Assembly: GCA_004346725.1 (NCBI GenBank)
Contig: SMDE01000001.1
Coordinates: forward strand, 124,001 to 188,000
From: Phytobacter diazotrophicus
Lineage (GTDB): Bacteria > Pseudomonadota > Gammaproteobacteria > Enterobacterales > Enterobacteriaceae
Length of the DNA: 64,000 nt
Reading direction: 5' to 3'
The position numbers and the translations under genes were made by a program. Below the pieces are notes generated by a model that was given only the letters and a program-made list of their open reading frames with translations, did no database searches and was not told where the DNA came from. Shown piece after piece: positions 6,908-24,690 of this stretch (positions are counted from its first letter, which is position 1; the number at the start of each line of letters is the position of its first letter).

Positions 6908-7025
6908 ATACCAAAAAGAAAAATGGCTGCGAAAAATTCACCGCCATTTCATCGCCACTTAAAATTCACTTAATAAAAATCCACTATGAGAAGTGGCTTA
7001 AGTTAATGATTTTAAATCTAAAATT

Positions 7026-7101
7026 TGGTGGCCCCTGCTGGGTTTGAACCAGCGACCAAGCGATTATGAGTCGCCTGCTCTAACCACTGAGCTAAGGGGC
7101 C
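7026..7101 (-). tRNA. ileX: tRNA-Ile2 (anticodon CAT, lysidine-modified in the cell)
   Basis: On the minus strand a 76-nt tRNA starts GGCCCCTTAGCTCAGTGG and ends with an encoded CCA. All four stems fold: the acceptor GGCCCC pairs with GGGGCC, and the T arm is GCTGG/CCAGC. The anticodon loop reads CTCATAA, so the anticodon is CAT. The body matches E. coli ileX rather than tRNA-Met. TilS converts the C to lysidine so that the tRNA reads AUA. The P2-type prophage abuts its 3' end. The T loop (TTCAAAC) differs from the E. coli form I remember (TTCAAGT), which could mark phage-derived sequence at the 3' end. Confidence 0.95.
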
Positions 7102-7111
7102 GTGGCGGGCA

Positions 7112-7140
7112 ATTATAAAGTAACTTCTCCAGGCGATCCA
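7112..7140 (-). promoter_or_regulatory. Probable ileX promoter
   Basis: On the minus strand a perfect TATAAT (plus-strand 7112-7117) lies 17 bp from a weak -35, TGGATC (7135-7140). It is followed by a GC-rich discriminator directly before the tRNA, typical of stable RNA promoters under stringent control. Confidence 0.6.
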
Positions 7141-8203
7141 GCATCAACATTCCATCTGGCTGTTTTATAAACAACGCATTATCAATCCTTTATACTTAAG
7201 TTCCGCATCCAACATCGGGGAAATACATAGCCTCGATATTCTTGTGCCAGGGTTGCGCGTTGCTTTCTACAGAATGAATGCCGGCAACCCCCACGGAACA
7301 CATACAACGAGCGGTGGAAGATCAACAGATCCTGTGTGGCTTAGGTTCGGCTTTAAAAGCCGATGGCAGTGGGTAGTATGAGCGACGTTCAAACGGGTGA
7401 AGTCTGCTTAAACATAATGATGACTCTTAACTCTCGGTACTCATTGCTCCGTACTCTGGAAATTTTGAAGAGAATGCCGCGCAGGTAGACTCCCGAAGAC
7501 GACAACATTTTGCTATCGATGCGACTCAAATTTGGGAGCTTCGAAAGCTCAGCAGCCTAAACAGAACAACATACAAGATTTATCATAAACCACCCGCCAC
7601 GTGATTGGAGAGGCGCTATAAAACTAATTTTTGCACTAAAGCATCACTACAACTAATGAATGAAATCTATTTTAAATAACCATCAACTTGTCGTTTTTCA
7701 AGTTAGTTGACTAATGAGGTTCTTAATTATTCTTTATCGTAATACGTTAGCTCAATGCATATTCAATGTTAAATGCAATATGTTTTGGTTGTAAAAATGT
7801 ATAAGTTTGGCAGGCGGAATAAACATCATGAAATATTTTTCATATCAATATTATTCATGAAATGATGAAATATTTCCAAGTTATTCGCTTTGTGAATTTT
7901 AAATATTTTTAACTAACTGATATTAAAAGATTTTATTAATTTTTCGAACGAGATTCTATAGTTATAGAACTTATTAATTAATATCGTTATATTAATAGTT
8001 TATAACTTATAGGATCTATCCGGATACCTCGCTACATTTATAGCTGATTTGGAAGTTCAGTAAGTTTGTATCAGGAAGATACCCGCAATTTTTATCCTTT
8101 TGTCTTTACCTTCCTGTCAGGAATTTCATTCCCAAAATGCGAAAATTCGCCAGGTTAAAAAATTAGCAAGATAAATTTTTAGTTTTATTTATACGCATCC
8201 CCC
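7141..8203. other. Intergenic leader of the capsule operon with a possible decayed mobile-element remnant
   Basis: No convincing gene is seen. From about 7200 to 7570 the base composition is moderate. A minus-strand frame there reads as an interrupted protein: a 39-codon piece at 7389-7508, then stops, then a Cys/Arg-rich stretch containing GYVFPRCWM. This may be a remnant of a P4-like satellite, a guess from memory. From about 7600 the DNA is very A+T-rich. In E. coli group 2 capsule loci the kpsM promoter PR3 lies about 740 bp before kpsM, so this stretch probably carries the promoter and long 5' leader of kpsM. No mug gene is present. Confidence 0.5.
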
Positions 8204-8240
8204 GAGCATGCTGGTAGCTAAAGCCAGGGGCGGTAGCGTG
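8204..8240 (+). promoter_or_regulatory. JUMPstart with ops element (RfaH recruitment site)
   Basis: The stretch closely follows the 39-bp JUMPstart consensus, with CTGGTAGCTAAAGCCAGG before the ops core. The core GGCGGTAGCGT is at 8229-8239. RNA polymerase pauses at ops, RfaH binds the exposed strand, and elongation through long surface-polysaccharide operons becomes resistant to termination. It lies 28 bp before the kpsM start, inside the expected untranslated leader, which also rules out the upstream ATG at 8208 as the kpsM start. Confidence 0.93.
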
Positions 8241-8267
8241 TCTCATGACATGAAGGTTGCATCACCA

Positions 8268-9044
8268 ATGGTCAGAAGTGGGTTAGAAGTTCAGCAAGCG
8301 GCTGTGAAAGCGCTGTTCCTGCGCGAGATTAAAACGCGATTTGGTAAGTACAGACTCGGTTACTTTTGGGCAGTTTTAGAACCAGCAGCACATTTGCTTG
8401 TCCTCATGGTTATTTTTGGTTTCATAATGCACAGAACGATGCCAGATATATCATTTCCCGTATTTCTATTAAATGGCATTATTCCCTATTTTATTTTTAC
8501 CAATATAACTAATCGCTCGATTGGTGCTATCGAGGCGAATCTGGGATTATTTAACTATCGTCCAGTAAAGCCAATTGATACAATCATTGCCAGAGCATCT
8601 CTGGAAACCTTAATATATGCCGCTGTATATTTAATGCTTATGGCGATAGTGTGGGTTTTGGGGGAGGAGTATTCAGTAACTAATATTCTTATATTAGTAT
8701 TTAGTTGGTTTTTATTAATTATATTCTCATGTGGACTGGGTTTGGTTTTCATGGTCCTTGGTAAAACCTTTCCAGAACTTGCAAAATTTTTGCCTATAGT
8801 GTTGAAACCTCTATATTTTATTTCATGCATTATGTTTCCAATCCACTCAGTTCCTAAAGGATATTGGCATTATCTTTTATGGAATCCAATTGTTCATGCT
8901 ATTGAGCTCAGCCGAGAATCTGTTGTCGCCGGATATTTGACCGATGGCGTTAGTTTGGGATATTTAGCTTTGAGCGCAATAATAATGCTTTTCATTGGGT
9001 TAGCGTTGTACAGGACACGTGAAGAGGCGATGTTAACATCATGA
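8268..9044 (+). CDS. kpsM: Capsule polymer ABC exporter, membrane subunit KpsM
   Basis: This is the inner membrane permease of the group 2 capsule exporter (ABC-2 family). It forms the channel with KpsT and passes lipid-linked capsule polymer to KpsE/KpsD. From the ATG at 8268 it has 258 aa, the usual KpsM length. It carries the conserved ALFLREIKTRFG near the N-terminus, about six membrane segments, and the C-terminus LYRTREEAMLTS. The longer frame from 8208 would translate the ops element and is rejected. The stop overlaps the kpsT start. It is first in an operon running into region 2 and should depend on RfaH. Confidence 0.95.
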   Translation: MVRSGLEVQQAAVKALFLREIKTRFGKYRLGYFWAVLEPAAHLLVLMVIFGFIMHRTMPDISFPVFLLNGIIPYFIFTNITNRSIGAIEANLGLFNYRPVKPIDTIIARASLETLIYAAVYLMLMAIVWVLGEEYSVTNILILVFSWFLLIIFSCGLGLVFMVLGKTFPELAKFLPIVLKPLYFISCIMFPIHSVPKGYWHYLLWNPIVHAIELSRESVVAGYLTDGVSLGYLALSAIIMLFIGLALYRTREEAMLTS

Positions 9045-9706
9045 TAAGAATTGAAAATCTCACGAAATCCTACCGCACTCCCCAGGGGCGCCATTATGTC
9101 TTTAAAGATTTGAATGTTGAGTTGCCTGGCGGTAAAAGCGTTGCACTGCTTGGACGAAATGGAGCAGGAAAATCAACACTTCTTCGCGTTATAGGAGGCA
9201 TAGATAGGCCTGATAGTGGCAGTATATATACGAATAAAACAATATCCTGGCCTGTGGGGCTATCTGGTGGTTTTCAGGGCAGCTTAACAGGGCGGGAAAA
9301 CGTTAAATTTGTTGCACGCTTATATTCTGAGAAATCAGAATTAAAAAATAAAGTTGATTTCGTTGAAGAATTTGCAGAATTAGGTAAATACTTTGATATG
9401 CCAATCAAGTCTTATTCCTCAGGGATGAAATCCCGGTTGGGTTTTGGTTTAAGTATGGCTTTTAAATTTGATTACTATCTCGTCGACGAAGTTACAGCAG
9501 TAGGTGATGCCAGATTTAAGCAGAAATGCTCAGATCTTTTTAAATCCCGCCATTCTGAATCCAGTTTCTTAATGGTGTCACATAGCTTAAATTCTTTGAA
9601 AGAATATTGTGATGTTGCTCTCTTCTTAGGTCGAGATAATGTTGTTCATTATTTCGATAATGTCGAAAATGCAATTAAAAAATATTTGGAAGAAGAAAAG
9701 CTTTAG
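9041..9706 (+). CDS. kpsT: Capsule polymer ABC exporter, ATPase KpsT
   Basis: This is the 221-aa ATPase that powers export through KpsM. Walker A is GRNGAGKS (38-45), the ABC signature SSGMKSRLG is near 126, and Walker B YYLVDE is at 145-150. A switch His lies in MVSHSLNS. The gene overlaps kpsM by four bases (ATGA), so the two subunits are co-translated. The first region 2 gene follows after 23 bp in the same direction, as in E. coli group 2 loci. Confidence 0.95.
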   Translation: MIRIENLTKSYRTPQGRHYVFKDLNVELPGGKSVALLGRNGAGKSTLLRVIGGIDRPDSGSIYTNKTISWPVGLSGGFQGSLTGRENVKFVARLYSEKSELKNKVDFVEEFAELGKYFDMPIKSYSSGMKSRLGFGLSMAFKFDYYLVDEVTAVGDARFKQKCSDLFKSRHSESSFLMVSHSLNSLKEYCDVALFLGRDNVVHYFDNVENAIKKYLEEEKL

Positions 9707-9729
9707 AAGTAAAAAACGGCCATAGTTAA

Positions 9730-10722
9730 ATGCTTACTGCAATAATTCCAATCGATCTAAAACGTAGGTCGAAAGATCTCATCGAAAAAGCGCTAGTGTT
9801 AGCCGAGGTTGCTCAGCAATCTAACGTTAAGATAATATTTGGACATAATAACCGTGGAACTCGCTATGATTTTGAATTAATTTCTCGGTTACAGAGATAT
9901 CCATATGTGCAGATGAATTCTAAAAAAAATGTGTCTGAATATATTAATTCATCTTTGTTACGAAATTTAGCATTTGAACTGGTTGACACGGACTATATAA
10001 TTTTACTTGATGTTGACATTTATCCAGATTTTGATCTTTTTATAAAGTACAAAGATAAAATTGAAAGATCGATAAGACCATTTTACGTATTACCATGTCT
10101 TTATCTTACTGAATATGGGACCACGCTTTTAAGGAAAAAAAAGGTTTCCGTTGAGGGAATGAAGAAAAAATTTTTTGATTTCTCCCGTAAAGAATTTTTG
10201 CATCTGGCTAGCCCATCATCAATTACAATTTTGAAATCCGACGATTATAGGATGATAAAAGGGTTTGATGAAAGATTTCGGGGGCATGGATATGAAGATT
10301 TTGATTTCCTCATACGATTATATGAATTACATGGCATGTTAAAAAAATTTAATGATTTCACGCTTGATAAAACGGAGAGATCGCCCCTGTTTGCGGTTGG
10401 CTTTAGAAGATATCTAGGAGAAGCTTGTCTTGAAGTTCTGCTTGAAAAAGATATGGCTTTTCATCTCTATCATGAAAAAGACGGCCATGAAGACTATTAT
10501 TTAGCGCGTCAGGAAAATTATAAAAAACTTATCGAGGCACATTCACATAATGTTAGCGATCAGGAAGAAATAAATTCGACACTACTCGTACCTTTCGTTT
10601 CTCTTTGCGTTAATCAGGGCAAGAGTATTCATGATTATGCGATTTTCTTTGATAATAAACCTGGACATATAGATCGATTTGATACATTTAAAAGACGAAT
10701 CAATTTTCTATTGAATAAGTGA
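9730..10722 (+). CDS. Capsule glycosyltransferase, GT-A fold with galactosyltransferase-type C-terminal motif
   Basis: The 330-aa product is a family 2-like glycosyltransferase. A DVD metal/nucleotide-sugar motif is at 94-96 (within ILLDVDIYP). A C-terminal GFDERFRGHGYED motif (178-190) resembles the catalytic-domain signature of beta-galactosyl and chondroitin-type transferases. No membrane segment is seen, so it is probably cytoplasmic and membrane-associated. It probably adds the hexose of the repeat unit, with galactose as a guess by analogy to E. coli K2/K62-type loci. It lies between kpsT and the TagF-like polymerase. The DNA is A+T-rich compared with the backbone. Confidence 0.75.
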   Translation: MLTAIIPIDLKRRSKDLIEKALVLAEVAQQSNVKIIFGHNNRGTRYDFELISRLQRYPYVQMNSKKNVSEYINSSLLRNLAFELVDTDYIILLDVDIYPDFDLFIKYKDKIERSIRPFYVLPCLYLTEYGTTLLRKKKVSVEGMKKKFFDFSRKEFLHLASPSSITILKSDDYRMIKGFDERFRGHGYEDFDFLIRLYELHGMLKKFNDFTLDKTERSPLFAVGFRRYLGEACLEVLLEKDMAFHLYHEKDGHEDYYLARQENYKKLIEAHSHNVSDQEEINSTLLVPFVSLCVNQGKSIHDYAIFFDNKPGHIDRFDTFKRRINFLLNK

Positions 10723-10763
10723 AATTTTAATAGTGTTATCAGTTATAACATTAGGATGTTAAA

Positions 10764-13700
10764 GTGATTATAAAGAAATTAAGAAAAATGGTCAGGGAAC
10801 CCAAGAAATTTATAGCTGACTCTAAATTTATAAAAAAGATAAAACCATGCGGATTCTATTTAAATAATAATCCATCAATTGGGTTTATCATCATTGCAAA
10901 TAATGAACAAGAAATTAACGATTCCGTTGAAAGCGTGGTTCTGGCAAATAAAACGTCAGGGTTAAATAGCCCATACGTGATAATTAATAGCAGCGAAGTT
11001 ATAAATATCACTGATGAGATTCACTCAGCTGCAAGTAAAGTAAATACCTTTTATGTGAAAATCCTCGAGCAAGGTGAATTATTACATAAAAATTTCCTTA
11101 AAAATTATCATCTGTATAATTTCAGTTCTCAGTCAGCAGAAATAGTTTTACACGGATATACAAATGATACTTCTGTTACACAACTCGATCCATTAATTGC
11201 CAATTTAAAAACGAGCGCAAATGTCGAAAACCTAACATCAAAGGATTACTTTTTTCCGTCATTGGCTGTGATTTTTTTTAAAACTAAATATCTTTATGAA
11301 ATAAAAAAATTCATCAAACCAGATGCCATAGCAAGTAAGGTTATTAATGCTCTTAAAATTTCTGCTTTAAGTGTGTTAGATTCTGATATCCATTTTATTC
11401 CAAATGCTTTTTCGTGTAGTAGTTCTGGCTCTAGTCTCGAATCTGAACTCCAGGAAATTGTAAAAGAAGGAAATTCGCTAAAAATATTATTATTTGAAGT
11501 TAAAGATATTCTCAAAGTTAAACAATTTTCGAAACAGGAAAGTAAATATTTATTTTGCCTCATTCATAACATTATACTTCTCTTACTTAAGAATAAAAAA
11601 GCTGACGAATTAATAAATCAAGACTTACAGGATGAAATAAAAACTTGCCTTGTTACACTTGTTAATTTACTTGGGGTCGATGTTTTAAAAGGCTATTCGG
11701 CAAAAAACTATAATCATGTGCATAAAATAGGGTATTTAAAACTCTTAGGTTTAGATGCTGAAAGAGATCTGTGCTACATCGAAGACGTCAACCTTTCAAA
11801 CATGAGTGTTAAATTTAAAATTGCCTCACATCATGACACTCTTCCGCGATTGTTTTTAAATGGCAAAGAGACGATACCCTTGTCCGCAAAAGTAAGGGAA
11901 TTAACCATATTCGATCTCTCCTTTTCCTTTGAAATCTATTTTTGGGTCTCCTACAATTCAACGACTCAGGAACTATCTTTGCAGAATGATTTTATCACCG
12001 GTATCATTGTAAATGGCAAGCGCTTATCAAAAGTCGCAATAGTGAGTATTATTAATAGCCACGTTCGTAAAAATGTACAGTCTTATGCAATAACGAGAAA
12101 AGCAAAAATATTGCGTTCTATAGCTACATCTTCAATTATAAAAAATAAGTATTCTAATTCTTGGTTGTTTATTGATAATGAATTGCGTGCAGATGATAAT
12201 GCAGAACATTTTTATCGTTATGTTTCAAAATATCATCCTGGGGAAAAATGCTATTTTTTGATTAGTGAGCAATCTCCCGATTGGCAACGTCTTAAGAATG
12301 ATGGTTTCAATTTGGTAAAGTTTGGTAGTTTAGCACATAGATTAGCGCTATTGAATGCAAAGTATCTCCTTTCATCTCATGCAAATCCCGCAATTGTTAA
12401 TTATCTGCCGCGCAAATATTATGCAGATATAATGAAATATAAATTTGTTTTTCTTCAGCATGGCATCACAAAAGACGACCAATCTGAATGGTTGAATAGT
12501 AGGAAAATTGATTATCTTGTTACTGCTGCACGACATGAATTTAGCGATATCTCTGGTCGTGGAAGGTATCGTTATACTTCTCAAGAGACAATTCTGACTG
12601 GCTTTCCTCGTTATGATAACCTCAGAAAGCGTGATGAAAGTAAAAAACAAATCCTTATAATGCCAACATGGCGTAAAAGCTTAGCTGGAGAATTAATAAG
12701 AAAATCCAGTAAGCGTGTTAAAAACCCTGAATTTATTAATTCATTATTTTGTGAAATGTGGGGAGGCTTTCTCCGTTCAGAGCAGCTTCGCAAAACAACA
12801 GAGGATTATGGATATAGCATAATATTCTTACCTCATCCAAATCTAACTGATTATTTGTCTGAGTTGGCGATACCAGACTATATCCAGGTTGGAGATCTAA
12901 CCAGTTGTAGTATTCAGGAAATATTTAAAGATGCAGATCTACTGATCACTGATTATTCTTCCGTTGCATTTGATGTTGCATATATGAAGAAGCCAATAAT
13001 CTATTTCCAGTTTGATAGTACAACTTTCTTCTCTGAACATTCATACTCTAAAGGTTATTATGACTATGAGGAGCTTGGTTTTGGACCAGTAGTTGGTGAT
13101 ATTGATACATTAAATGCTGAACTTAAAAACACGCTTGCAAATAAATCTATATTGACCCCTTTTTATGATAAAAGAATTAAATCCTTCTTTCCTTATGATG
13201 ATCATAACAACTCTTCGCGTCTCTTCAACCGATTAAAGAATGAAGGTGTTAAAGTTTATGACTGCGAAACTATTCTTGAATATCTTGAAAGATATACAAG
13301 TAATTTAGAGTTTAAATCTATAGACACATTTTTGAGTAGCTTCGAAACTAATTTAATAAAAATGCCTCTTTATCTCCATGACAGGCTAATAGAAGTATTT
13401 GAAGATATAGTTTTTATTTGTAAGCTTGATAATAATGATAATATTTTGTCAAAAATAGAAGTAATACAGAATAATATAACTTTTAATACGCCAACAGATT
13501 TTTCATTTGCAGATAGCTTTCAAGTTATACCTGATGCAATGCAAGTTCTCAAATATACTGAAAACTATTTGTTAAAGCTAAAATCGCGTAAAGTATTTGA
13601 AAAAGGGTCTAATTTAAATTTATATAATTATTGCTGTTCGCTAATTTCATTCGTGGATTTTTATAATAAGCAGGATTACCAGGGAGCTTTAACGGTATAC

Positions 13701-14540
13701 ACTAGTAAATTAGAACGCAATGCTGAACAAAATCCAAGGAATGTAATGCTTTTAAATTGCTTGACATTAATCAAGAATGGGGAAGCAGCGAAGGCAATAA
13801 ACTCATTCTCTAGCTTAACGATGACTTCCGAAGAAAAAGAATACCTCCTTTCTGAAATCTATAAGCATCATCAGCCTGAGGATAGAATGAATCTTCAATT
13901 AAGCCAACTATTGCCGCTCAACGAAAACAGCATTATGGCTATAGAAACATTCCTACTTTTGAGCAAGAACACCCCGATAGATTTGCTGTGCCATTATAAC
14001 GAAAAGAATGTGATGCCAGACTCTATTCTTATTCATTATCTTGATCGTTTGTTCAGAGAGAAAAATTTCGCAAGCATGAGTGCTATTCTTAATGATGAGA
14101 TCAAGAAGAAATGCTATCTTATTTCAGATAATAATCGAGCAAAATATCTCTTCACGGTGTTTATATCTGAAGGAATCGAGAAATTCTTATCCGAACTCTT
14201 CATACTAACCGGAAATGGCAATCTAGTGTATGTTTTGGAAAGCATGTTTATTAATAATGACGATATCGATTTAGACGTTATTTTTAAAATTATTGAAAGT
14301 GTTGTTGCTAAAGATCTTTATCCATTCTCATGTGCAGAAATATATCAATATGCTTTATTGTTTTTTAAAAAATCACGGCCTGACCTGGCTAAGGAACTTA
14401 CTATCCTGTCAATTATAAAAAAACATGAGGAATTCTACAGCGATATTAAAAATTGGAAAGGGGCTGATGATTACAGAACTCTATTATCAGCAGTGTCTGA
14501 GTTGAATGATGCACTTGCTGGTTTAAATCGTATGCAATAG
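10764..14540 (+). CDS. Large TagF-like (CDP-polyol) phosphotransferase, predicted capsule polymerase
   Basis: This 1258-aa protein starts at GTG 10764 with an AGGA ribosome site. Residues about 30-230 look like a degenerate GT-A domain (GFIIIANNEQE). About 450-830 is a CDP-glycerol glycerophosphotransferase domain with LQHG near 563, TGFPRYD, MPTWR near 633, LPHP at 689-692 and ITDYSSVAFD near 730; the His and Asp in these motifs are the catalytic type of TagF. About 850-1258 is helical and TPR-like. Such multidomain polymerases make teichoic-acid-like capsules in Neisseria meningitidis H/Z, Actinobacillus pleuropneumoniae and E. coli K2-type strains. The substrate (glycerol-phosphate or another polyol-phosphate) is inferred. 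DNA is strongly A+T-rich. Confidence 0.85.
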   Translation: MIIKKLRKMVREPKKFIADSKFIKKIKPCGFYLNNNPSIGFIIIANNEQEINDSVESVVLANKTSGLNSPYVIINSSEVINITDEIHSAASKVNTFYVKILEQGELLHKNFLKNYHLYNFSSQSAEIVLHGYTNDTSVTQLDPLIANLKTSANVENLTSKDYFFPSLAVIFFKTKYLYEIKKFIKPDAIASKVINALKISALSVLDSDIHFIPNAFSCSSSGSSLESELQEIVKEGNSLKILLFEVKDILKVKQFSKQESKYLFCLIHNIILLLLKNKKADELINQDLQDEIKTCLVTLVNLLGVDVLKGYSAKNYNHVHKIGYLKLLGLDAERDLCYIEDVNLSNMSVKFKIASHHDTLPRLFLNGKETIPLSAKVRELTIFDLSFSFEIYFWVSYNSTTQELSLQNDFITGIIVNGKRLSKVAIVSIINSHVRKNVQSYAITRKAKILRSIATSSIIKNKYSNSWLFIDNELRADDNAEHFYRYVSKYHPGEKCYFLISEQSPDWQRLKNDGFNLVKFGSLAHRLALLNAKYLLSSHANPAIVNYLPRKYYADIMKYKFVFLQHGITKDDQSEWLNSRKIDYLVTAARHEFSDISGRGRYRYTSQETILTGFPRYDNLRKRDESKKQILIMPTWRKSLAGELIRKSSKRVKNPEFINSLFCEMWGGFLRSEQLRKTTEDYGYSIIFLPHPNLTDYLSELAIPDYIQVGDLTSCSIQEIFKDADLLITDYSSVAFDVAYMKKPIIYFQFDSTTFFSEHSYSKGYYDYEELGFGPVVGDIDTLNAELKNTLANKSILTPFYDKRIKSFFPYDDHNNSSRLFNRLKNEGVKVYDCETILEYLERYTSNLEFKSIDTFLSSFETNLIKMPLYLHDRLIEVFEDIVFICKLDNNDNILSKIEVIQNNITFNTPTDFSFADSFQVIPDAMQVLKYTENYLLKLKSRKVFEKGSNLNLYNYCCSLISFVDFYNKQDYQGALTVYTSKLERNAEQNPRNVMLLNCLTLIKNGEAAKAINSFSSLTMTSEEKEYLLSEIYKHHQPEDRMNLQLSQLLPLNENSIMAIETFLLLSKNTPIDLLCHYNEKNVMPDSILIHYLDRLFREKNFASMSAILNDEIKKKCYLISDNNRAKYLFTVFISEGIEKFLSELFILTGNGNLVYVLESMFINNDDIDLDVIFKIIESVVAKDLYPFSCAEIYQYALLFFKKSRPDLAKELTILSIIKKHEEFYSDIKNWKGADDYRTLLSAVSELNDALAGLNRMQ

Positions 14541-14570
14541 GGAAAATTAAATTTTCGGAAATTTAAAGAA

Positions 14571-15473
14571 ATGAGATGGTTTACTCGCGATATTGTTATT
14601 GCATCTATGTTGTTATTCTGTATAACAAATGTATTGGCTTCGCAAAAGGAGCCAATTATTATTGATACGCGCAACAACATACAAGGAATGGTGATTAACC
14701 TGGATGGAGGTGTTTATACGTTAGAACACCAAAGTAATAATCCTATACCTTTAGTCTATTTGAATCAAGATGGGGAGCGTAATATAATACTAACTGATAG
14801 TTCCATCGGTCATCAAGGCATAGGTGTATACGAAGATCGCACGCGTGGAATGAATTTGATTTTTACCAGCAAAAAAAATTCACCATTTAGCGGGCTTGCT
14901 TTCCTGATCAAAAATGATGATCTTGTAATGAAGCGTGAGATCGTTTTTTTTGATGATTCTTTTTTCAAAAAAAATGAAGTAATACCCACGATTTCCAGTG
15001 ATGGTAAGTTTCTAATAGTTCGCGGGCGATTCGCTTCAAGGAACATGATAATCAGAGTTTTTGATTTGGAATATATCGTTGGCAAGATTATAAATTCAAA
15101 TAAAGATATTATCTTTGTAACTTCGGGTTATAAATATCAATGGTCTTTACCTAATAATATATTTACATATAAATCCGGCGAGTTAAGACCATTACAGGCA
15201 ATTGCATCCAATGGAAAAATAGTAAGTATTGTTTTGGGCAATGCAAGAGTAAATCCTAAGGCTATTTATAGTTTTACAATGGATGGAAATTTACTGGGCT
15301 CTAATACGAACGTTACTGTGGGTATGGACAGGGTTAAATCTTATGGTGAGGAAGGTTTTTTTGAACCAGAAGGCTTGAGTATAGACGATAATGGAATCTT
15401 ATCAATACTAATGTTGATTGGTAGAAAAAATAGCATTAGTAACTATATATATAAATATTCCGAAGCTGATTAA
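14571..15473 (+). CDS. Secreted protein of unknown function, last gene of capsule region 2
   Basis: I do not recognise this 300-aa protein with certainty. Residues 1-23 form a signal peptide (Arg near the start, hydrophobic ASMLLFCIT, then a VLAS cleavage-type site), so it should be periplasmic or secreted. The rest is rich in beta-strand-like segments, with repeated short blocks containing NLDGG, LNQDG, SSDGK, TMDGN and IDDNG, which suggests a beta-propeller. GFFEPEGLSID near the C-terminus recalls TagC/phage receptor-binding propellers, but this is a weak impression. It follows the polymerase by 30 bp in the same direction and shares its A+T-rich composition. A role in trimming, binding or releasing the polymer is possible. 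Confidence 0.6.
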   Translation: MRWFTRDIVIASMLLFCITNVLASQKEPIIIDTRNNIQGMVINLDGGVYTLEHQSNNPIPLVYLNQDGERNIILTDSSIGHQGIGVYEDRTRGMNLIFTSKKNSPFSGLAFLIKNDDLVMKREIVFFDDSFFKKNEVIPTISSDGKFLIVRGRFASRNMIIRVFDLEYIVGKIINSNKDIIFVTSGYKYQWSLPNNIFTYKSGELRPLQAIASNGKIVSIVLGNARVNPKAIYSFTMDGNLLGSNTNVTVGMDRVKSYGEEGFFEPEGLSIDDNGILSILMLIGRKNSISNYIYKYSEAD

Positions 15474-15698
15474 AGATGATTTTATATGATGTTGCGGAAT
15501 TTACCATTCTGAATTTCAGGGGAAATATCGAAGAATGCATTGTCAATGTTATTTGCTGTGTTAAATAACATTATATTGATAATAGATTTTACAATATCTC
15601 ATTCTGGATCACCAAAGATAAAATATGACAAGAATTATCAAATCCATTTTTACGGTATTGTCCTTAAAACTAGCTGATGGCGAGTGATTTACATCAAG
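15474..15698. other. Convergent intergenic region between capsule regions 2 and 1, with inverted repeat
   Basis: An A+T-rich 225-bp gap separates converging operons. A perfect 9-bp inverted repeat, ATGTTATTT (15546-15554) with AAATAACAT (15563-15571), could form a weak hairpin. No strong intrinsic terminator with a T-run is visible, so read-through and antisense transcription into the opposite operon are possible. Confidence 0.45.
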
Positions 15699-16964
15699 TC
15701 ACTTCACCATGTTTTGACTTTGTAATTCATTGCTAAGATGATTGACTTTTTTAATTACGAATCGCTTTATGCATTCAACATCCGTTTTTTCCCCATAATA
15801 CACCGCATTTATCTGCGTATTCTCCAGCAAATACTCACGAAATTTCTTAAACAACTTCATGTCCGGCTTGAAATTTGCCGTCCAGAACTGGTGCAAGTGT
15901 CCCTGATATGTCATCCCTTTGATGTCATACAGGGCGTTGCCCATCACCTTCAACGGTTTGTTATGCACTAACGCTGAAATTCCCGCCGTACTGTTAATCG
16001 TCACCACGGCTTTGGCATGCGTCAGTAATTCCGGCATCGGTAAATCGTGGACATAAATTATGCGATTGGTCACGCCATACTTTTTACTCAGCCGCTTAAT
16101 CAACGGGCCATACAGACGATGCCCGCGATCCATAGGGTGGTGCTTAATGATCAGCACATCGTCTTTCGGCGCTTTGCGTGCAAACGAGAAGATCACATCG
16201 TTAATATAATCCCGGACATCAGCGTATGGGCTATGGTTGCGGATCTGACTATCGTTATAGACCTGCAAAATCGCAAGGTAATAGCGTTGATCGAATGTCG
16301 TCTGCAGCGTCTCCATTACGCCACGTTGTTTCCAGCCATACCATTGCTTACGCCACCACGCGCGCACCCAGCATTTTGCCTCGTACCATGGTGAAAAAGA
16401 TTTGTGATGGCGATAATGCATGAACTCGTGTCTATAACGCCAGCCGACAAGATAATACCATGTCGCGTGGATGTAACGGCGGCCTGAGGACGGTTTCAGT
16501 GGCTGGGGTTCTGAGGGCGGGAAATCTGGCAAGCTCCGGTAAAAATCAGGATCACGGGGCAGGGGGGAGAAAGCATTCACTCCGCCTTCTTCAAGTGTAA
16601 TAAAATGAGGCCGCAGATAGCCCTCTTCGAAAGCCAGGAAACGAATACCTTTCGCTTTCGCCCAGGCATGCGCCGCCCTATGCAATGGACGGCAGTCACC
16701 GAAGCACAAGATGGTGTCGAATGGATAAACCTTCCAGGTCTCTTTCAGCCAGGTCGGGAATTCCTTCGGCGTTTGTGTATAAGTAAGGTGCTGACGATGT
16801 CGACAATAAAAACGATCGCCACCATTAAATACAACATTTACCGCTTCGCGTTCCAGCGTCTCCAGCCAGTTGGCGACATCATTGAAGAAAGGCCCCATTG
16901 GTCCTTGCAACAGCAGATATTTTTTCCCAGCGAGTAATGTCTTAACGGTATTATTTTGCATCAT
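15699..16964 (-). CDS. kpsS: Kdo-linker transferase KpsS (capsule lipid anchor synthesis)
   Basis: KpsS adds the first beta-Kdo to lyso-phosphatidylglycerol, starting the poly-Kdo linker that KpsC extends. The 421-aa product has KYLLLQGPMGPFF near the N-terminus and FNGGDRFYC, CFGDCRP, FEEGYLRP and IKHHPMDRGHR, all hallmarks of the KpsS (capsule polysaccharide biosynthesis) family. Its C-terminus is somewhat longer than the E. coli form I recall. It is the last gene of region 1, 23 bp after kpsC, and converges with region 2. GC content is close to the chromosomal backbone and higher than in region 2. Confidence 0.93.
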   Translation of the reverse strand: MMQNNTVKTLLAGKKYLLLQGPMGPFFNDVANWLETLEREAVNVVFNGGDRFYCRHRQHLTYTQTPKEFPTWLKETWKVYPFDTILCFGDCRPLHRAAHAWAKAKGIRFLAFEEGYLRPHFITLEEGGVNAFSPLPRDPDFYRSLPDFPPSEPQPLKPSSGRRYIHATWYYLVGWRYRHEFMHYRHHKSFSPWYEAKCWVRAWWRKQWYGWKQRGVMETLQTTFDQRYYLAILQVYNDSQIRNHSPYADVRDYINDVIFSFARKAPKDDVLIIKHHPMDRGHRLYGPLIKRLSKKYGVTNRIIYVHDLPMPELLTHAKAVVTINSTAGISALVHNKPLKVMGNALYDIKGMTYQGHLHQFWTANFKPDMKLFKKFREYLLENTQINAVYYGEKTDVECIKRFVIKKVNHLSNELQSQNMVK

Positions 16965-16987
16965 CGTCCATGAGTCTCAAATTAACA

Positions 16988-19030
16988 CTAACCAAAACGA
17001 ACTTTGTAAAACATCAATAACTTGCGGTACTGTCTGGCTAATCGACCAATATTTTTTTTCGTGATTTTCATTTCACCGCGTGGAGCGGTGCTCAGCCATA
17101 TTACGGCCTCTTCTGCCTGCATTGGCTCCAGTCGCTGTGGATGGATATAAGTTGGATACGCGATAAGCGTTTGCCACACTAAATCCGTAAGACTGAGCTG
17201 TCGGGCGCGCCGGGGAATATTGTGCTCATCCTGAGTGAGTCCCCAGCCGGCATAAAAAGGCAGGCCATAGCAAAATACTCGCTTACCGTGCATTAAGGCT
17301 TCGAAGCCGGAAAGAGAGGTCATGGTGTGTAACTCATCAGCGAGTTGAATGCACTGAATGATATCGGCATCCAGCGCCTGGCAGTCGGCCCAACGGGCGA
17401 TATCTTCCGCCACGACTTGCCCTTTACGGTTGCCAACCAACACATCCGGGTGCGGTTTAAAGACAACAAACGCGTCAGGATTGCGCTCGCGTACCGTACG
17501 CAATAAATCCCGGTTGGTGTTAACAGACCTCGCCCCTGTCAGAATCGAGGCGTCATCCTCCACCTGACCGGGTACCAGAATAATTTTTTTACCGGTAGCC
17601 TCGGGCGGTAAGTGCCACTCCTGTCCAAGGTTGTATTTACTGACTTTGTTGCGCACAAGTTGTTGCAGAAGGGCTTGCGCACGCTCCCGCTGATGTTCGC
17701 TCAGGCTGCTGGCGTTCAGCAGGTTTTCCAGATCGCTTGGACGGGATGCGTCGTAATAGATACCGGTTTTATCCAGCACTAAAGACAGGGGGGCGAGCAA
17801 ATCGGAACCCAGGCCGGAGGAGCGGATAAACCCGTCTTCCATCCGCCACAGTGGAATGCGCTGTGCATCTGCCTGCGCCTGCCATTTTTTCTCTCCCCTT
17901 GTACCCCAGGCAATAAGCGCGCTGGCTTGTCGACACTGCTTCGCAAAGCGTACCCGGTTCTCCGCTGTTTTCAGAAACGGCCTCAGTATTGCTGTTTTCC
18001 ACAGGCTTAATCCCGGCGCCCATAGCGTGCCACGGCGTGACTGGTTGTGGTTACGCTGTAAGACCAGCCAGTCGACAACGCAGGCCAGCGTTGCAGGTTT
18101 TCCGCTTATCGGGTGTCGGTAACGGCAGTAGCGCAAATAGGCGGCGGTAAACAGATTGCTCAGTGTGGTCGGTTGTCGGCGTGCGGCAAGCTCACGGGCC
18201 TTTGGGTGACGGTCATCTGTTAGTCCCCAGCCCGCATACCATGGCTGCCCAAAGCAGACGACGGGTTTGCCTGCCAGCAACGCTTCAAAACCATACTGCG
18301 AGGTGACCACATACACCTTTTGCATGTGCCGCAGTAGCGATTGCGGGCTGATATCTTCGGCAAATACGCGCACACGGTCGTCGGATTTCAGGTTCGCAAA
18401 GTACCCCGCCTTTTTGCCGCATAGCACATCCGGATGCACCTTCACCCAAACCTCTGCGCTCGGATTTTCCTGCTTTGCTGTCTCAAGCATCTGCTGGAAG
18501 CTTTCCGGGCCGGCGTTACCTTTGGTGACAGACATATCGCCAAACGTCTGGTCAATGACCAGCACGGCCTCTGGCATAATATCCGGTGCGACAAACGGCG
18601 GCGCCTGGTTGTATTTCGACAAATCATTGTCAACGATGGCGCGCATCATCGCCTGCGCTTCAGCCGCGAGCGGCTTATTGCCGTCATTATCTTTTACCAG
18701 GCATTCAAGCGAGCTCGGAACCGAAGCGTCGTAATAGATGCCTAAATGATCAACGACGATGGAGAGAGGCGGGCAACCCTGAACGCCTAACCCGAGAGAA
18801 CGAATAAAGCCATCTTCCAGGCGAATAACCGGGAGACCAACGGATTGTGCCAGGGCAACAGGCTTTTGCGCGCTGGGGCGGTGGCCCCAGACGGCGATAG
18901 CATTCACCTGCTCGGGAATGGTTTTATAAGGCGAAAGCCGCACTGGTTCTCCAGGCAGAAAACTGGCCAGATGCGGAATGCGCCAGATCCCCCCGGAATA
19001 AATACCCAGTATGTTTCTCGTTCGTTCCAT
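16988..19030 (-). CDS. kpsC: Dual-domain poly-Kdo linker synthase KpsC
   Basis: KpsC has two related Kdo-transferase modules that alternately add beta-2,4 and beta-2,7 Kdo to the KpsS product. The two repeats show in paired motifs: [13 protein letters not shown] with [10 protein letters not shown] in the N-half, and [13 protein letters not shown] with [10 protein letters not shown] in the C-half. I chose the ATG at 19030 (680 aa), which places [12 protein letters not shown] at the N-terminus as in E. coli KpsC (675 aa). An ATG at 19096 would add 22 residues of poor match. The gene follows kpsD directly; kpsU, which lies between them in E. coli, is missing. Confidence 0.93.
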
Positions 19031-19125
19031 CAATATCAATCCGTTGATTAAAGAAGAAAACGTTTTTACCGCTGCTTGTTTCGCTTTCCCCGGCATGCCG
19101 GGAAAAGCATCTGCGACAGAGCTGA

Positions 19126-20802
19126 TTAGATTGTCAGCACAACCCTGGCGGCAACGGCAAGCTGATAAAGAATGGTCGAAATACCACGCGTAACTTCAAT
19201 GTTTTTCGATTCGTATTTCGGCAGAACCATGATTTCGTCACCGGGTTGCAGTTTTCCTGCGTCGTCAGCATCAACCGACTCGCCGTTCTGGTGAATCACA
19301 ATGATTTTTGAATTGCCGGATTTCTGCGTCAGCCCACCGCATTTTTTGATGTAATCGTCCACATCCATTCCGTCCTGCCAGGAGACGGCGTTCGGGAACA
19401 GCACTTCCCCGTGCACCATAACCAGCGACGTTTTTTCCGGAATCATGATGACGTCACCATCTTCCAGCAGCACCGAGTCGATGTTGCTTTCGCTAAGCAC
19501 GACTTGCCCTTTCGGGACGACAGCTCGCGCTTTATTGACGAACCGGCTAACCAGTTGTGCTTCCTGCATGCGCAAACGGGCCTCTTCCTGCGTTGAGGAT
19601 TGTGCTGAAAGAGAGGCCTCTTCCAGTTTCTGCAACGACAGGTTCAGCATCTCTTTCTGACGCTCCGCAACAGATGTTCTGTACAACTGGATGGCCTTCA
19701 TCTGCGACATGCTATTCGGGCGGATCTGCGATAGCACCTGACGCATGGTCGAACCGTATGGCAGAACTATCGCATGTTCGCCGGAATGGGCGCCGTCAAC
19801 ACGTACCTGAATGGTGCCTGCATAGCGGTCTGAACTCACGATAAGACGGTCGCCATCCTGCAGAGAGCGGCCCGCTGCGGAGCCGAGAGGATAGTATTCG
19901 CTACGTTTTACGGTACCTTGCTGACGGATAATGGTCATGTGGGTGGCGCCGGGTTTCGGACGCGCCCAACTGAGTGCCTCTGTGACCGGAATCGTACTGT
20001 TGGCGAATTCAAAGTCGTAACTGTTAAACACATCGCCTTCTACGCTGAATGTATGCTGACGTGGACCAACGACGATGGTATCGCCATCGACAAACTGCGA
20101 CAGGCCCAGCTTACCGTTCAGCAGAAAATCGTACAGGTTCACGCGTGAGATAACCGATTTGCCACGTTTGACGATGATATTAACGTAGCTGCCGCGCTCA
20201 CTGTCGACGCCGCCAGCTTTGCTCAGATAAGAGAGCAGGGAGTCAGATGCCACGCCACCATATAAGCCTGGGCTTTGCACATAGCCGGTCACGAAAACTT
20301 TCACCGGCTGAGCCTGCAGCAGGGAGGCATAGACGTTAACGTTCGACGTATAAACTTCTTTGATCTTACTGGTGACGGTATTGTTCAACTGCGCATTGGT
20401 CATACCCGAGACTTTCAGCGGGCCAATATTAGGCAGGAAAATATTGCCTTTCGGGTCAACGGTGAGCGCCCCGTCATACTGGAATGCGCCCCACAGTCGA
20501 ATCTGGATGGTATCACCGAGACCAATCACATAGCCTGGGTTGAACCCCAGACCTGCGCCTGAAGCTGCGCTGATAGAGGTAAACAACTGTGCGCCGAACA
20601 TGCGGCTGGGCAGTGCGGCAGCCACGGGGGGCGGTGTGTTGTCAAACCCGGTTGCGTTCTGAGTTTCTTCTGTCTTGCCGGAGATAATCGACGGCAACGG
20701 CGCCGCCCCTGTCAGATTTGGATCGGCTGTAATACCTGTCGGACCTGCCGCCCAGGCCGCATGGCAGACCAGAAGGAGCAGTGCCGATTTTAATAATTTC
20801 AT
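19126..20802 (-). CDS. kpsD: Capsule export outer membrane/periplasmic protein KpsD
   Basis: KpsD is the Wza-type polysaccharide export component that carries group 2 capsule across the periplasm and outer membrane with KpsE. From the ATG at 20802 it has 558 aa, matching E. coli KpsD, and begins with a signal peptide ([18 protein letters not shown]). The polysaccharide export domain is at about 80-160 ([12 protein letters not shown]), followed by SLBB-type repeats and a helical segment with [10 protein letters not shown]. An in-frame ATG at 20856 would add 18 residues before the signal peptide and is rejected. It lies 34 bp after kpsE. Confidence 0.95.
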
Positions 20803-20836
20803 GTTCAACTCTGTAAAATTCACTGTGCGTCCAAAA

Positions 20837-21988
20837 TTAGTCTTTGTGATCTTCAATCACGGCCAGCAGCAATTTGATGGTGCCGAAGAGTAGGCAGCAG
20901 ACTAACAACCAGCTTGCCAGCAGGTAGCCGCTATTGGGGAAACTGGACTCTTCCGGTTGTTGCGGTGAACTGATGACCGACAACACTTTGAGTTTACGTG
21001 CCGCTTCCAGGCGTGTTTTTTCAATGGCTTTGATCGCCATCGTGTAGATTTCGGTATCGAAGGTGACGCGTGCTTTAATCTCGTCAAAGTCAGCCGCCAT
21101 GCTGTTGAGTTTCTTATCGCCTGGCGCGGTGATTTTGCTCTGCTCTGCGTCGATCTGTGCCTGCAGGGCTTTTATTGAATTACGAAGGCTAATGACCTGG
21201 GGCGCATCTTCACGCAAGTAACTCAATAAATTACGCAGCTCGGCTTCCAGCTCAACTTTTTTACCTTGTAAGGTCATCACCAGAGAGGTGGCAGCAGTGG
21301 CGGAGGCTTCGGGATCGAGGATATTGTTCTGATTTTGGTAAGCCAGTAATTCTGCTTTACTTTTATCAAGGCGAATACGGGCCTGCTGTAGTTCTTCCTG
21401 GGCGAAGTTCAACTGCTCTCGCGCGATTTTATGGGAGAGCTCGTTAATAAAACGCTCTGACTCTTTCAGGACTGCTTTATTGAACTGCTGTGAGAATTCC
21501 GGCGTAAAACCCTGGGTCTGAATCGTCAAAAGACCGGTTTTGTCATCAAAGACCACAGAGATTCGGTCGCGGTAGTAATTGAGGAACCGTTCTGCCGTTG
21601 TATCTTTAGAGAGATGATGAATGAAGTCCAGCCCGCTATGGCTCCATGCATCGTGAAAATCGAGCTGTTTATCGAGTACTTTCAGCATATCTGCTGAGTT
21701 GATGTACTCCTTGAGATACAACGCGTCTTCGGTGGAACTGGGGCTGGATGCACCCAGCAGCAAGCCGACATTCAGGCTGGCGCCTTCAATATCACTGGGA
21801 CGTTTTACCGCGACCTTTGATTCGCTCATATATCGCGGCTGGCTGAAAATCACCAAATAGATGACGAGCAGCGCCATCGGGGCGGCAATAACAATCCAGG
21901 CAAGATGCTGCTGGATCCAGGCAAGATTAAATTTGGCCGTACGTGCGCGTAACGAGGACGCCAGCAACTTTACTTTATGTGTAGACAT
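20837..21988 (-). CDS. kpsE: Capsule export inner membrane co-polymerase-type protein KpsE
   Basis: KpsE is the polysaccharide co-polymerase family 3 protein that bridges KpsMT in the inner membrane to KpsD. The 383-aa product has the standard length. A membrane segment is at about 29-50 (WIVIAAPMALLVIYLVIF), a long periplasmic coiled-coil lies between about 190 and 330, and a second membrane segment is near 350-372. RYMSESKVAVKRP follows the first membrane span, as in E. coli. It is the first recognised gene of region 1, preceded only by a 67-codon ORF. E. coli has kpsF at this position. Confidence 0.95.
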   Translation of the reverse strand: MSTHKVKLLASSLRARTAKFNLAWIQQHLAWIVIAAPMALLVIYLVIFSQPRYMSESKVAVKRPSDIEGASLNVGLLLGASSPSSTEDALYLKEYINSADMLKVLDKQLDFHDAWSHSGLDFIHHLSKDTTAERFLNYYRDRISVVFDDKTGLLTIQTQGFTPEFSQQFNKAVLKESERFINELSHKIAREQLNFAQEELQQARIRLDKSKAELLAYQNQNNILDPEASATAATSLVMTLQGKKVELEAELRNLLSYLREDAPQVISLRNSIKALQAQIDAEQSKITAPGDKKLNSMAADFDEIKARVTFDTEIYTMAIKAIEKTRLEAARKLKVLSVISSPQQPEESSFPNSGYLLASWLLVCCLLFGTIKLLLAVIEDHKD

Positions 21989-22066
21989 GTCACTTTCAAC
22001 GTTATTCTTCCTGGCAAAAATTTGCTGAGGGGAAGACTTTTTATGTCGGTATAAACAGGTGAGGTG

Positions 22067-22270
22067 TCAGTCGAAAATCCTGACTGAACCAATCACATCC
22101 TGTGAATTATCGGTGATGAGTAGGGTGGAGATGCGGTGTTTAGTCATCTTCTCTTCCGCATTGATGACTTCTGCCAGATGGCGGAGTGCATCACCTTGCT
22201 CCGTCAATGTGCTGCGTACGCTGTTAATCAGCGCTTGCTCTTCTGTTTCCGTGTTCACGTTAAAATCCAT
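22067..22270 (-). CDS. Small hypothetical protein upstream of kpsE
   Basis: This 67-aa frame has a strong ribosome site (CAGGAAAC before the ATG). It reads as a soluble acidic helical protein (NVNTETEEQALINSVRST), ending in a short strand-like IGSVRIFD. I do not recognise a family. It is co-directional with kpsE, 78 bp upstream, and occupies the position of kpsF in E. coli. It may be co-transcribed with region 1. It could be a small regulator or an accessory factor; alternatively it is unused sequence in the 5' leader. The good start signal favours a real gene. Confidence 0.5.
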   Translation of the reverse strand: MDFNVNTETEEQALINSVRSTLTEQGDALRHLAEVINAEEKMTKHRISTLLITDNSQDVIGSVRIFD

Positions 22271-22790
22271 TTTGTTTCCTGTTGGTAATCTCTACGTGAC
22301 GGTTGGTGTCCAGGCCATAGTTAACAGGCGCACCGTCACAGCAACCGATTTAGGACATACCACTCAGTTATCATCCTGTTCCTTGAAATGCAAAAAAATA
22401 CCCAGTCGCCATGGTGGTGACGTTTACCAGGTACATTTGAAACTTGCGAGTTCGGGGACTATCTTTTATTTTCCCGTTTTTTAGCACAAGCAGCTCTTAT
22501 ATACAACTGCAACGAATTTAGTAATGCTGAGCATAATAGCTTTTACTATTGTTATTTTAAGATTAACTGTTTGTAATTTTGGGGTTTTTTGTTGTCTTTA
22601 ATGTGGTTTGCAATTCTTTTTATTGCCTGTTTATAAATTTTAAAAGCGTAATAAATTAATGCTGCCTCGCAGGGTTATATTTATTTTATCAAGCAATTTT
22701 TCCAAAGTATTCATATTGGAAATATATTTAAAATAATGTGAAATAGTCTGGCATTGATATCTGGATTTATTTTTCCATTAATACGGATAA
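22271..22790. other. Upstream region of capsule region 1
   Basis: About 520 bp without a supported gene separate the region 1 genes from the rpoD terminator. The left part has ordinary composition and the part from about 22490 is strongly A+T-rich. It should hold the minus-strand promoter of region 1 (PR1 in E. coli lies about 225 bp before kpsF). A+T-rich DNA of this type is commonly silenced by H-NS, which is known for E. coli group 2 promoters. I could not assign a single best promoter. Confidence 0.4.
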
Positions 22791-22842: not shown

Positions 22843-24690
22843 TTAATCGTCGAGGAAGCTACGCAGAACCTCAGAGCGGCTTGGGTGGCGCAGTTTACGC
22901 AGCGCCTTCGCTTCGATCTGACGGATACGTTCGCGGGTAACGTCGAACTGTTTACCCACTTCTTCCAGCGTGTGGTCGGTATTCATATCGATACCGAAAC
23001 GCATACGCAGCACTTTTGCTTCACGGGCGGTCAGGCCAGCCAGAACGTCGTGCGTAGCGGCACGCAGGCTCTCGGTGGTCGCAGAGTCCAGCGGCAGCTC
23101 GAGGGTGGTGTCCTCGATGAAATCACCCAGATGCGAATCTTCATCGTCGCCAATCGGCGTTTCCATGGAGATCGGTTCTTTGGCAATCTTCAGCACTTTA
23201 CGGATCTTGTCTTCCGGCATCAGCATACGCTCGGCCAGCTCTTCCGGCGTCGGCTCGCGGCCCATCTCTTGCAGCATCTGGCGGGAGATACGGTTGAGCT
23301 TGTTGATAGTCTCAATCATATGCACCGGAATACGGATGGTGCGCGCCTGATCCGCGATAGAACGGGTGATCGCCTGACGGATCCACCAGGTTGCATAGGT
23401 GGAGAACTTGTAACCGCGGCGGTATTCAAACTTATCTACCGCTTTCATCAGGCCGATGTTGCCTTCCTGAATCAGATCGAGGAACTGCAGACCACGGTTG
23501 GTGTATTTCTTGGCGATAGAGATAACCAGACGCAAGTTCGCTTCAACCATCTCTTTTTTCGCACGGCGCGCTTTCGCTTCACCGATGGACATACGACGGT
23601 TAATGTCTTTCACCTGCTCGATGGTCAGGCCGGTCTCTTCTTCAATCTGCTGCAGTTTCTGCAGGCCGCGCTGAACGTCCTCAGACACTTCATGCAGTTT
23701 TTCAGACCACGGCTTGTTCATCGCCAGGGCTGCATTGAACCAGGTCTCGTTGGTTTCGTTGCCAGTAAACAGCGTAATGAAGTTTTTCTTCGGCATTTTG
23801 CACTGTTCAACGCACAGCTTCATGATAATGCGTTCCTGGGTACGCACGCGATCCATCATGGTGCGCATGCTGTTTACCAGGTAATCGAACTGTTTCGGTA
23901 CCAGACGGAACTGTTTGAAGACTTCGGACAACTGCAGGATTTCGGCTGCGGCATCCGCGTGGCTACGGCCTTTCGCTTTGATGGTGTCACGGGTTTTTTC
24001 GTACTGTGTACGCAGCTCGGCAAATTTTTCGCGCGCCAGCTCAGGATCGATGCTGTTGTCATCGTCGCTGCTGTCATCGCCATCTTCGTCTTCATCTTCG
24101 TCTTCATCGTCGTCCAGCTCTTCCTGAGAGAGCTCAGAACCGACGTGAGTCGCCGTAGGTGCCAGATCTTCTTCCGCGTTCGGATCGACGAAGCCAGTGA
24201 TCAAATCAGACAGGCGAGCCTGCTCCGCTTCAACACGGTCATATTGTTCCAGCAGATAGGTAATGGCTTCCGGGTACTCGGCAACGGAGCACTGAACCTG
24301 GTTGATCCCGTCTTCTATACGCTTAGCGATGTCAATTTCGCCTTCGCGGGTCAACAGTTCAACGGTACCCATTTCGCGCATGTACATGCGCACCGGATCG
24401 GTTGTACGACCGATTTCAGATTCAACACTGGAAAGAACCTGTGCAGCCGCTTCTTCTGCATCTTCATCAGTGTTGTTGGCGGTTTCGGCAAGCAGTAGAT
24501 CATCGGCATCCGGTGCTTCTTCCATCACCTGAATGCCCATGTCGTTGATCATTTGGATGATGTCTTCGATCTGATCGGAGTCGACGATATCTTCCGGCAG
24601 ATGGTCATTGACCTCGGCATAGGTCAGATAGCCTTGCTCCTTACCACGTTGGACAAGAAGTTTCAGCTGTGACTGCGGGTTTTGCTCCAT
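22843..24690 (-). CDS. rpoD: RNA polymerase primary sigma factor sigma-70
   Basis: The housekeeping sigma factor, 615 aa (613 in E. coli). Region 1.1 spans about 1-80. Region 1.2 contains [17 protein letters not shown] non-conserved domain holds a long Asp/Glu tract near 191-213. Regions 2 ([26 protein letters not shown]), 3 and 4 ([32 protein letters not shown]) are intact. It is the last gene of rpsU-dnaG-rpoD, 158 bp after dnaG. In E. coli a heat-shock promoter inside dnaG also drives it. The acidic tract is where orthologues differ most. Confidence 0.98.

Follow-up and report, generated by a model that had tools for sequence, protein, structure and literature searches.

The ileX-rpoD interval of Phytobacter diazotrophicus: a capsule locus of group 2 type and the history of its site

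Results

We analysed a 64,000-nucleotide stretch of the Phytobacter diazotrophicus genome (the window; positions 124001-188000 of contig C1 in a genome of 5.54 Mb), in which a capsule (kps) locus lies between the tRNA gene ileX and rpoD, beside what remains of the gene mug. The capsule locus is an ordinary one of the group 2 type, a known kind, at an uncommon address, and this address and the history of its neighbourhood are the part worth following. ileX (7026-7101, minus strand) has a CAT anticodon (ARAGORN prints Met-CAT; the E. coli counterpart is annotated as tRNA-Ile), and rpoD occupies 22843-24690 on the same strand. The original prediction had described a complete locus running exactly from the ileX promoter to the rpoD terminator. 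The locus does lie between the two genes, and its six kps genes for export and 3-deoxy-D-manno-oct-2-ulosonic acid (Kdo) transfer are all present; however, kpsU is absent, kpsF is reduced to a remnant, and the module begins only at about 7977, where likeness to the module of P. massiliensis JC163 sets in, with the mug relic (7226-7631, plus strand) before it. The right edge of the module falls at 22551-22788, where the conserved stretch upstream of kpsF gives way to the terminator region of rpoD.

On the plus strand, an element at 8211-8240 (one match, against none in 100 shuffles), which we take to be of the JUMPstart/ops type, lies upstream of kpsM; a similar element precedes kpsM in Phytobacter ursingii ATCC 27989T and in P. 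massiliensis. kpsM (8268-9044) encodes 258 amino acids from its likely start at 8268, the longest frame opening at 8208, and is followed by kpsT (9041-9706), encoding the ATP-binding cassette (ABC) transporter ATPase (ABC_tran; 79% identical in Phytobacter ursingii). The central serotype cassette, on the same strand, consists of a glycosyltransferase gene of family 2 type (GT2; 9730-10722; PF10111), a gene for a candidate TagF-like capsule polymerase of 1258 amino acids (10764-14540; PF04464 at residues 462-824, E 8e-42) and orf5 (14571-15473), encoding a 300-residue protein of unknown function with a hydrophobic N-terminus, a putative export signal judged by eye. The minus strand carries the Kdo transferase genes kpsS (15699-16964) and kpsC (16988-19096; 90% identical in Phytobacter ursingii), kpsD for the outer-membrane export protein (19126-20856), kpsE for the periplasmic adaptor (20837-21988; TIGR01010) and the kpsF remnant (22067-22270). 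An A+T-rich core with flanks of near-backbone composition had been predicted, and the GC (guanine plus cytosine) contents bear this out: 33.4% for GT2, 32.4% for the TagF-like gene and 33.8% for orf5, against 47.6-54.1% for kpsS, C, D and E and 52.7% for window 22843-64000.

The assignment to group 2, the ABC-transporter class, follows from the presence of genes for KpsM, KpsT, KpsE, KpsD, KpsC and KpsS and from the convergence of the kpsFEDCS strand (region 1) on kpsMT and the serotype cassette; the NCBIfam scores of KpsM (193.7 of 300 bits), KpsS (386.1 of 600) and KpsE (421.3 of 437.5) lie below the curated cut-offs. KpsU gave no match in window 1-26000. The kpsF remnant retains 67 of 322 codons after an in-frame deletion that falls between short similar stretches, whereas the gene is full-length in Phytobacter ursingii, in P. 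massiliensis and in the two nearest E. coli loci discussed below. Two KpsF paralogues (44% and 43%), presumably KdsD and GutQ, are encoded elsewhere in the genome. With kpsU absent and kpsF internally deleted, the locus does not have the gene content of E. coli group 2A, in which both genes are present. Group 2B is described in PMC13171606 by distinct KpsDE clades together with the absence of kpsU, and our locus resembles it in lacking kpsU; the same paper calls kpsF and kpsU redundant.

In E. coli, the site of group 2 capsule loci is pheV (PMC7387560, PMC10272209), and the prediction of a group 2 type locus at another address holds. What the window shares with the pheV loci (K1 and K15 types) is the convergent arrangement of kpsFED(U)CS and kpsMT around a central cassette. 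The group 2 locus of E. coli strain 144, which converges in the same way, encodes KpsE, KpsD and KpsT that are 70%, 77% and 80% identical to those of the window; it differs in address, as it adjoins yghD/gspL, and in that the window locus lacks kpsU and has the deleted kpsF.

The original prediction also held that mug is missing. No intact copy is indeed left in this genome, but a relic stands between ileX and kpsM. We built a DNA profile from 10 intact copies of mug and ran it (nhmmer) on the window and on the corresponding loci of the other two genomes of the genus set, G001 and Phytobacter ursingii (102 kb, both strands). Its three best matches are window 7234-7287 (profile 9-62, E 1e-5), window 7501-7570 (profile 374-443, E 1.2e-4) and, in Phytobacter ursingii, the corresponding position (E 1.3e-4); the next best, in rpoD, has an E value of 0.14. 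The two window matches are colinear on the plus strand, and the start projected from the profile, 7226, lies 124 bp from ileX, exactly the distance found in E. coli, where the order is rpoD-mug-ileX; the spacing in P. massiliensis is 125 bp. When the spacer was shuffled 1000 times with its dinucleotides preserved, no shuffle reached 15.2 bits, the best scoring 6.1 bits (against 18.7). The relic has stops in all three frames. Gap-tolerant pairwise identities of the relic (71-73%) were set aside as evidence, such scoring being prone to inflate them.

Relocation of mug within the window genome can be ruled out. With E. coli Mug as query this genome gave no match at 1e-15, and its single PF03167 match sits in a 235-residue frame that fits Ung; no intact mug was found elsewhere in any of the three Phytobacter genomes, each with one PF03167 match, whereas the positive control, P. 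massiliensis, gave two. Mug was found in 197 of the 392 sampled genomes of the family (1e-15), and its absence is therefore common. Together with the loci of P. massiliensis and G001 described below, these sequence comparisons indicate that mug decayed in place, separately from the entry of kps.

To place the locus among relatives, the rpoD flanks were compared in 28 of the 59 other genomes, and KpsE was surveyed (cut-off 1e-60) in the 392 family genomes, with adjacency to rpoD defined as within 30 kb on the same contig. Phytobacter ursingii alone among the 28 has kps at the rpoD flank; 17 have mug between rpoD and ileX (ileX lying off the contig in one of them), and 11 are without mug there. 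The KpsE survey yielded 36 matches in 35 genomes, four of them near rpoD: those of the window, Phytobacter ursingii and P. massiliensis, and a divergent second locus in genome G225.

P. massiliensis has an intact mug next to ileX, followed by kpsM to kpsF and then rpoD. Gap and orientation are those of the window, and KpsE and KpsD are each 91% identical; the locus differs in its intact mug, its full-length kpsF and another central cassette. Its kpsS (L038:9279-10519) is split into two frames that overlap, through either a frameshift or an error in the draft. In Phytobacter ursingii, kps occupies the site seen in the window, and its cassette contains a single long frame of 756 amino acids. G001 has neither mug nor kps: its ileX-rpoD spacer measures 847 bp, lacks the conserved kpsM upstream region and matches the window at the ileX end, up to 7287, and again at the rpoD terminator. 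Presence of the same locus in all close relatives, which the original prediction would have read as ancestry, is thus seen in Phytobacter ursingii and P. massiliensis but not in G001. A backbone tree of rpoD-dnaG-tsaD, with other genera as outgroup, groups G001 with Phytobacter ursingii to the exclusion of the window (support 100), with P. massiliensis next (100). Because G001 is nested among kps bearers, its lack of kps is most simply explained as loss. The mug-rpoD gap also takes inserts other than kps, since in G011, a genome with intact mug, some 7 kb of other DNA (L044:1483-8633) fills it.

Discussion

Among the literature matches listed (titles and abstract starts), no work on a Phytobacter capsule appeared and no paper joined capsule or kps with mug, rpoD or ileX, the matches being unrelated; the main text of a study of Kluyvera and Phytobacter genomes (PMC10991690) does not contain 'capsul' or 'kps'. 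We consider it probable that kps took its place in the gap between mug and rpoD, and the simplest view puts this event in the ancestor that Phytobacter and P. massiliensis share. Under this reading, a group 2 type locus would have entered the gap once; mug would then have degenerated where it stood in Phytobacter, species would have exchanged their central cassettes, kpsF would have been deleted in frame in the lineage of the window, and the whole locus would have been lost again in G001.

Several observations weigh against this reading. At 4-fold sites, kps identity between the window and P. massiliensis (42-55%) is lower than that of rpoD-dnaG-tsaD (62.8%), and the same holds against Phytobacter ursingii (68-79% for kps, 81.4% for the backbone). 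In the KpsE-KpsD tree, the splits for Phytobacter and for Phytobacter with P. massiliensis and E. coli reach supports of only 77 and 76, and one branch, that of G225, is very long. The mug relic of G001 scores just 4.3 bits (E 0.24) by profile alone and is recognized through its alignment to the other two, the G001 DNA matching the window from ileX to 7287 at 84%. The sampling of one genome per species also counts here, as does the position of rpoD at a contig end in genomes G336 and G400, where kps may adjoin it. Finally, over 7.6 kb, kpsFEDCS of P. massiliensis finds matches in 2 of 5426 E. coli genomes, ECONIH5 and O15:H12 2273-PO3, at 98.5-98.6% identity, whereas the rpoD regions of P. massiliensis and ECONIH5 are 87.4% identical; the module therefore moves and may have reached the site repeatedly.

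Related kps modules might instead have been imported into the mug-rpoD gap by P. massiliensis and Phytobacter independently, or G001 might never have had one. Besides the near-identity with E. coli and the divergence of kps beyond the backbone, this alternative can draw on a conjugative IncX5 plasmid of Citrobacter freundii, pRHBSTW-00985_4 (L061), which carries kpsE, D, C and S together with kpsT and M and encodes a KpsE 80% identical to that of the window. However, separate imports would have had to find the same gap in the same orientation, with similar upstream regions of kpsM and kpsF, and the nesting of G001 between two kps-bearing species speaks for loss. We therefore regard independent entry as unlikely, though it is the likeliest of the alternatives; the E. 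coli identity makes the direction of capsule exchange between the genera testable with more genomes.

A second alternative is that an island integrated at ileX brought in kps and that a later rearrangement moved mug and ileX to its far side. ECONIH5 and 2273-PO3, whose kps genes are the closest to the window in E. coli (82% DNA identity over kpsED, against 60-80% for the other 1687 of 1689 matching genomes), have kps in the same neighbourhood and in the same direction relative to rpoD, with kpsF towards rpoD; in both, however, it lies behind ileX, on the 3' side, with mug intact and kpsF full-length. The kpsS of ECONIH5 is interrupted by an insertion sequence (IS) element. At the end of the 2273-PO3 island, beside nfeF, lie an integrase gene and a 47-bp repeat of ileX, the tRNA 3'-end repeat that marks a tRNA-integrated island; brxL and a pglZ with a frameshift, both of a bacteriophage exclusion (BREX) system, are part of the island as well. 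Neither strain is named in the main text of PMC13171606. In the window, by contrast, no such repeat flanks kps, and the kps side yielded no fragment of ileX above 15 bp, which leaves tRNA-mediated integration of this locus unsupported. Because kps lies on the 5' side of ileX, beyond mug, in both Phytobacter and P. massiliensis, and in the window is without such a tRNA-end repeat, tRNA integration probably did not place the Phytobacter locus, and we give the island alternative little credence. The view of ileX as an integration hotspot thus fits its 3' side, with a prophage in the window and kps in the two E. coli strains, but not the Phytobacter kps. Among 18 scanned kps loci, a tRNA gene stands beside kps in two (tRNA-Gly in L070, ileX in L039), which gives no guide to the sites of the others.

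Acquisition by recombination with replacement of mug, as originally predicted, would account for a kps locus between ileX and rpoD in a genus whose three genomes lack an intact mug, but is hardly tenable with a relic still in place, with G001 devoid of both and with P. massiliensis carrying both. An apparent gene replacement can thus be a pseudogene in place and a separate insertion.

More tentatively, we propose, as something less likely than not, that ABC-transporter capsule loci of the Enterobacteriaceae have repeatedly used the rpoD-mug-ileX interval as a second address. The proposal would cover a seat of long standing in the mug-rpoD gap of the Phytobacter lineage, E. coli insertions behind ileX whose region 1 derives from that lineage, and a third, divergent cluster in G225. 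The latter kps-like cluster (L039:4376-18990) starts about 0.75 kb behind ileX, soon after which the contig ends; its KpsM and KpsC are 36% and 38% identical, and it includes a DAHP-synthase-family gene, a cytidylyltransferase gene and a gene of 1178 codons. In any case, two E. coli strains and a genus of emerging opportunists have capsule loci in one and the same chromosomal neighbourhood. If the proposal is true, the Phytobacter lineage would be a reservoir from which E. coli receives capsule modules, a direction that is itself part of the proposal.

For the product of the locus we offer a working model. According to PMC13171606 and PMC11666461, the oligo-Kdo primer is made by KpsS and KpsC, and export of the chain falls to KpsMTED. 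In our model, KpsS and KpsC would build the primer on phosphatidylglycerol, GT2 and the TagF-like enzyme would elongate it into a polymer that probably contains phosphate, and the product would leave through KpsMT-KpsE-KpsD, with expression presumably under RfaH. The TagF-like enzyme, a large protein with a PF04464 domain and weak Protein Data Bank (PDB) matches to TarL and TagF, resembles the TagF-like capsule polymerases described in PMC5974469 and PMC11666461, which likewise belong to group 2 type loci; the capsule polymer is therefore likely to contain phosphate. Unlike in those systems, no synthase of cytidine diphosphate (CDP)-glycerol above the TIGR01518 cut-off was found in the window genome. 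The sole TIGR01518 match, rejected as a dedicated synthase, scores 51 bits against a cut-off of 165.4 and lies at window 41261-41641 in a 570-residue frame, which we take to be hldE.

Genome G264 has counterparts of all three cassette genes, together and in the order of the window, in its kps locus (55%, 40% and 37% identity for GT2, the TagF-like protein and orf5); the three therefore look like an exchangeable set. At 1e-5, orf5 is found in 3 of the 392 family genomes including that of the window, and in the other two (G264 and G402) it lies in kps loci. It has no Pfam match and no PDB sequence match at E values up to 10, and an AlphaFold prediction made without an alignment has a mean pLDDT (predicted local distance difference test) of 33.2, too low for a fold to be read from it.

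On the other side of ileX from kps, the P2-type prophage that had been predicted is confirmed. A 50-bp exact direct repeat covering the 3' half of ileX (7022-7071) forms one end, the other copy lies about 34.5 kb away at C1:96555-96604, and sheath, tail and GPD-type genes mark the element as P2-like. Similar repeats of 46-47 bp occur near ileX in L017 and L041. The prophage also holds an 813-codon gene (L030:3660-6101, C1:107660-110101) with SIR2-like matches and below-cut-off STAND NTPase matches, which makes it a candidate for anti-phage defence cargo.

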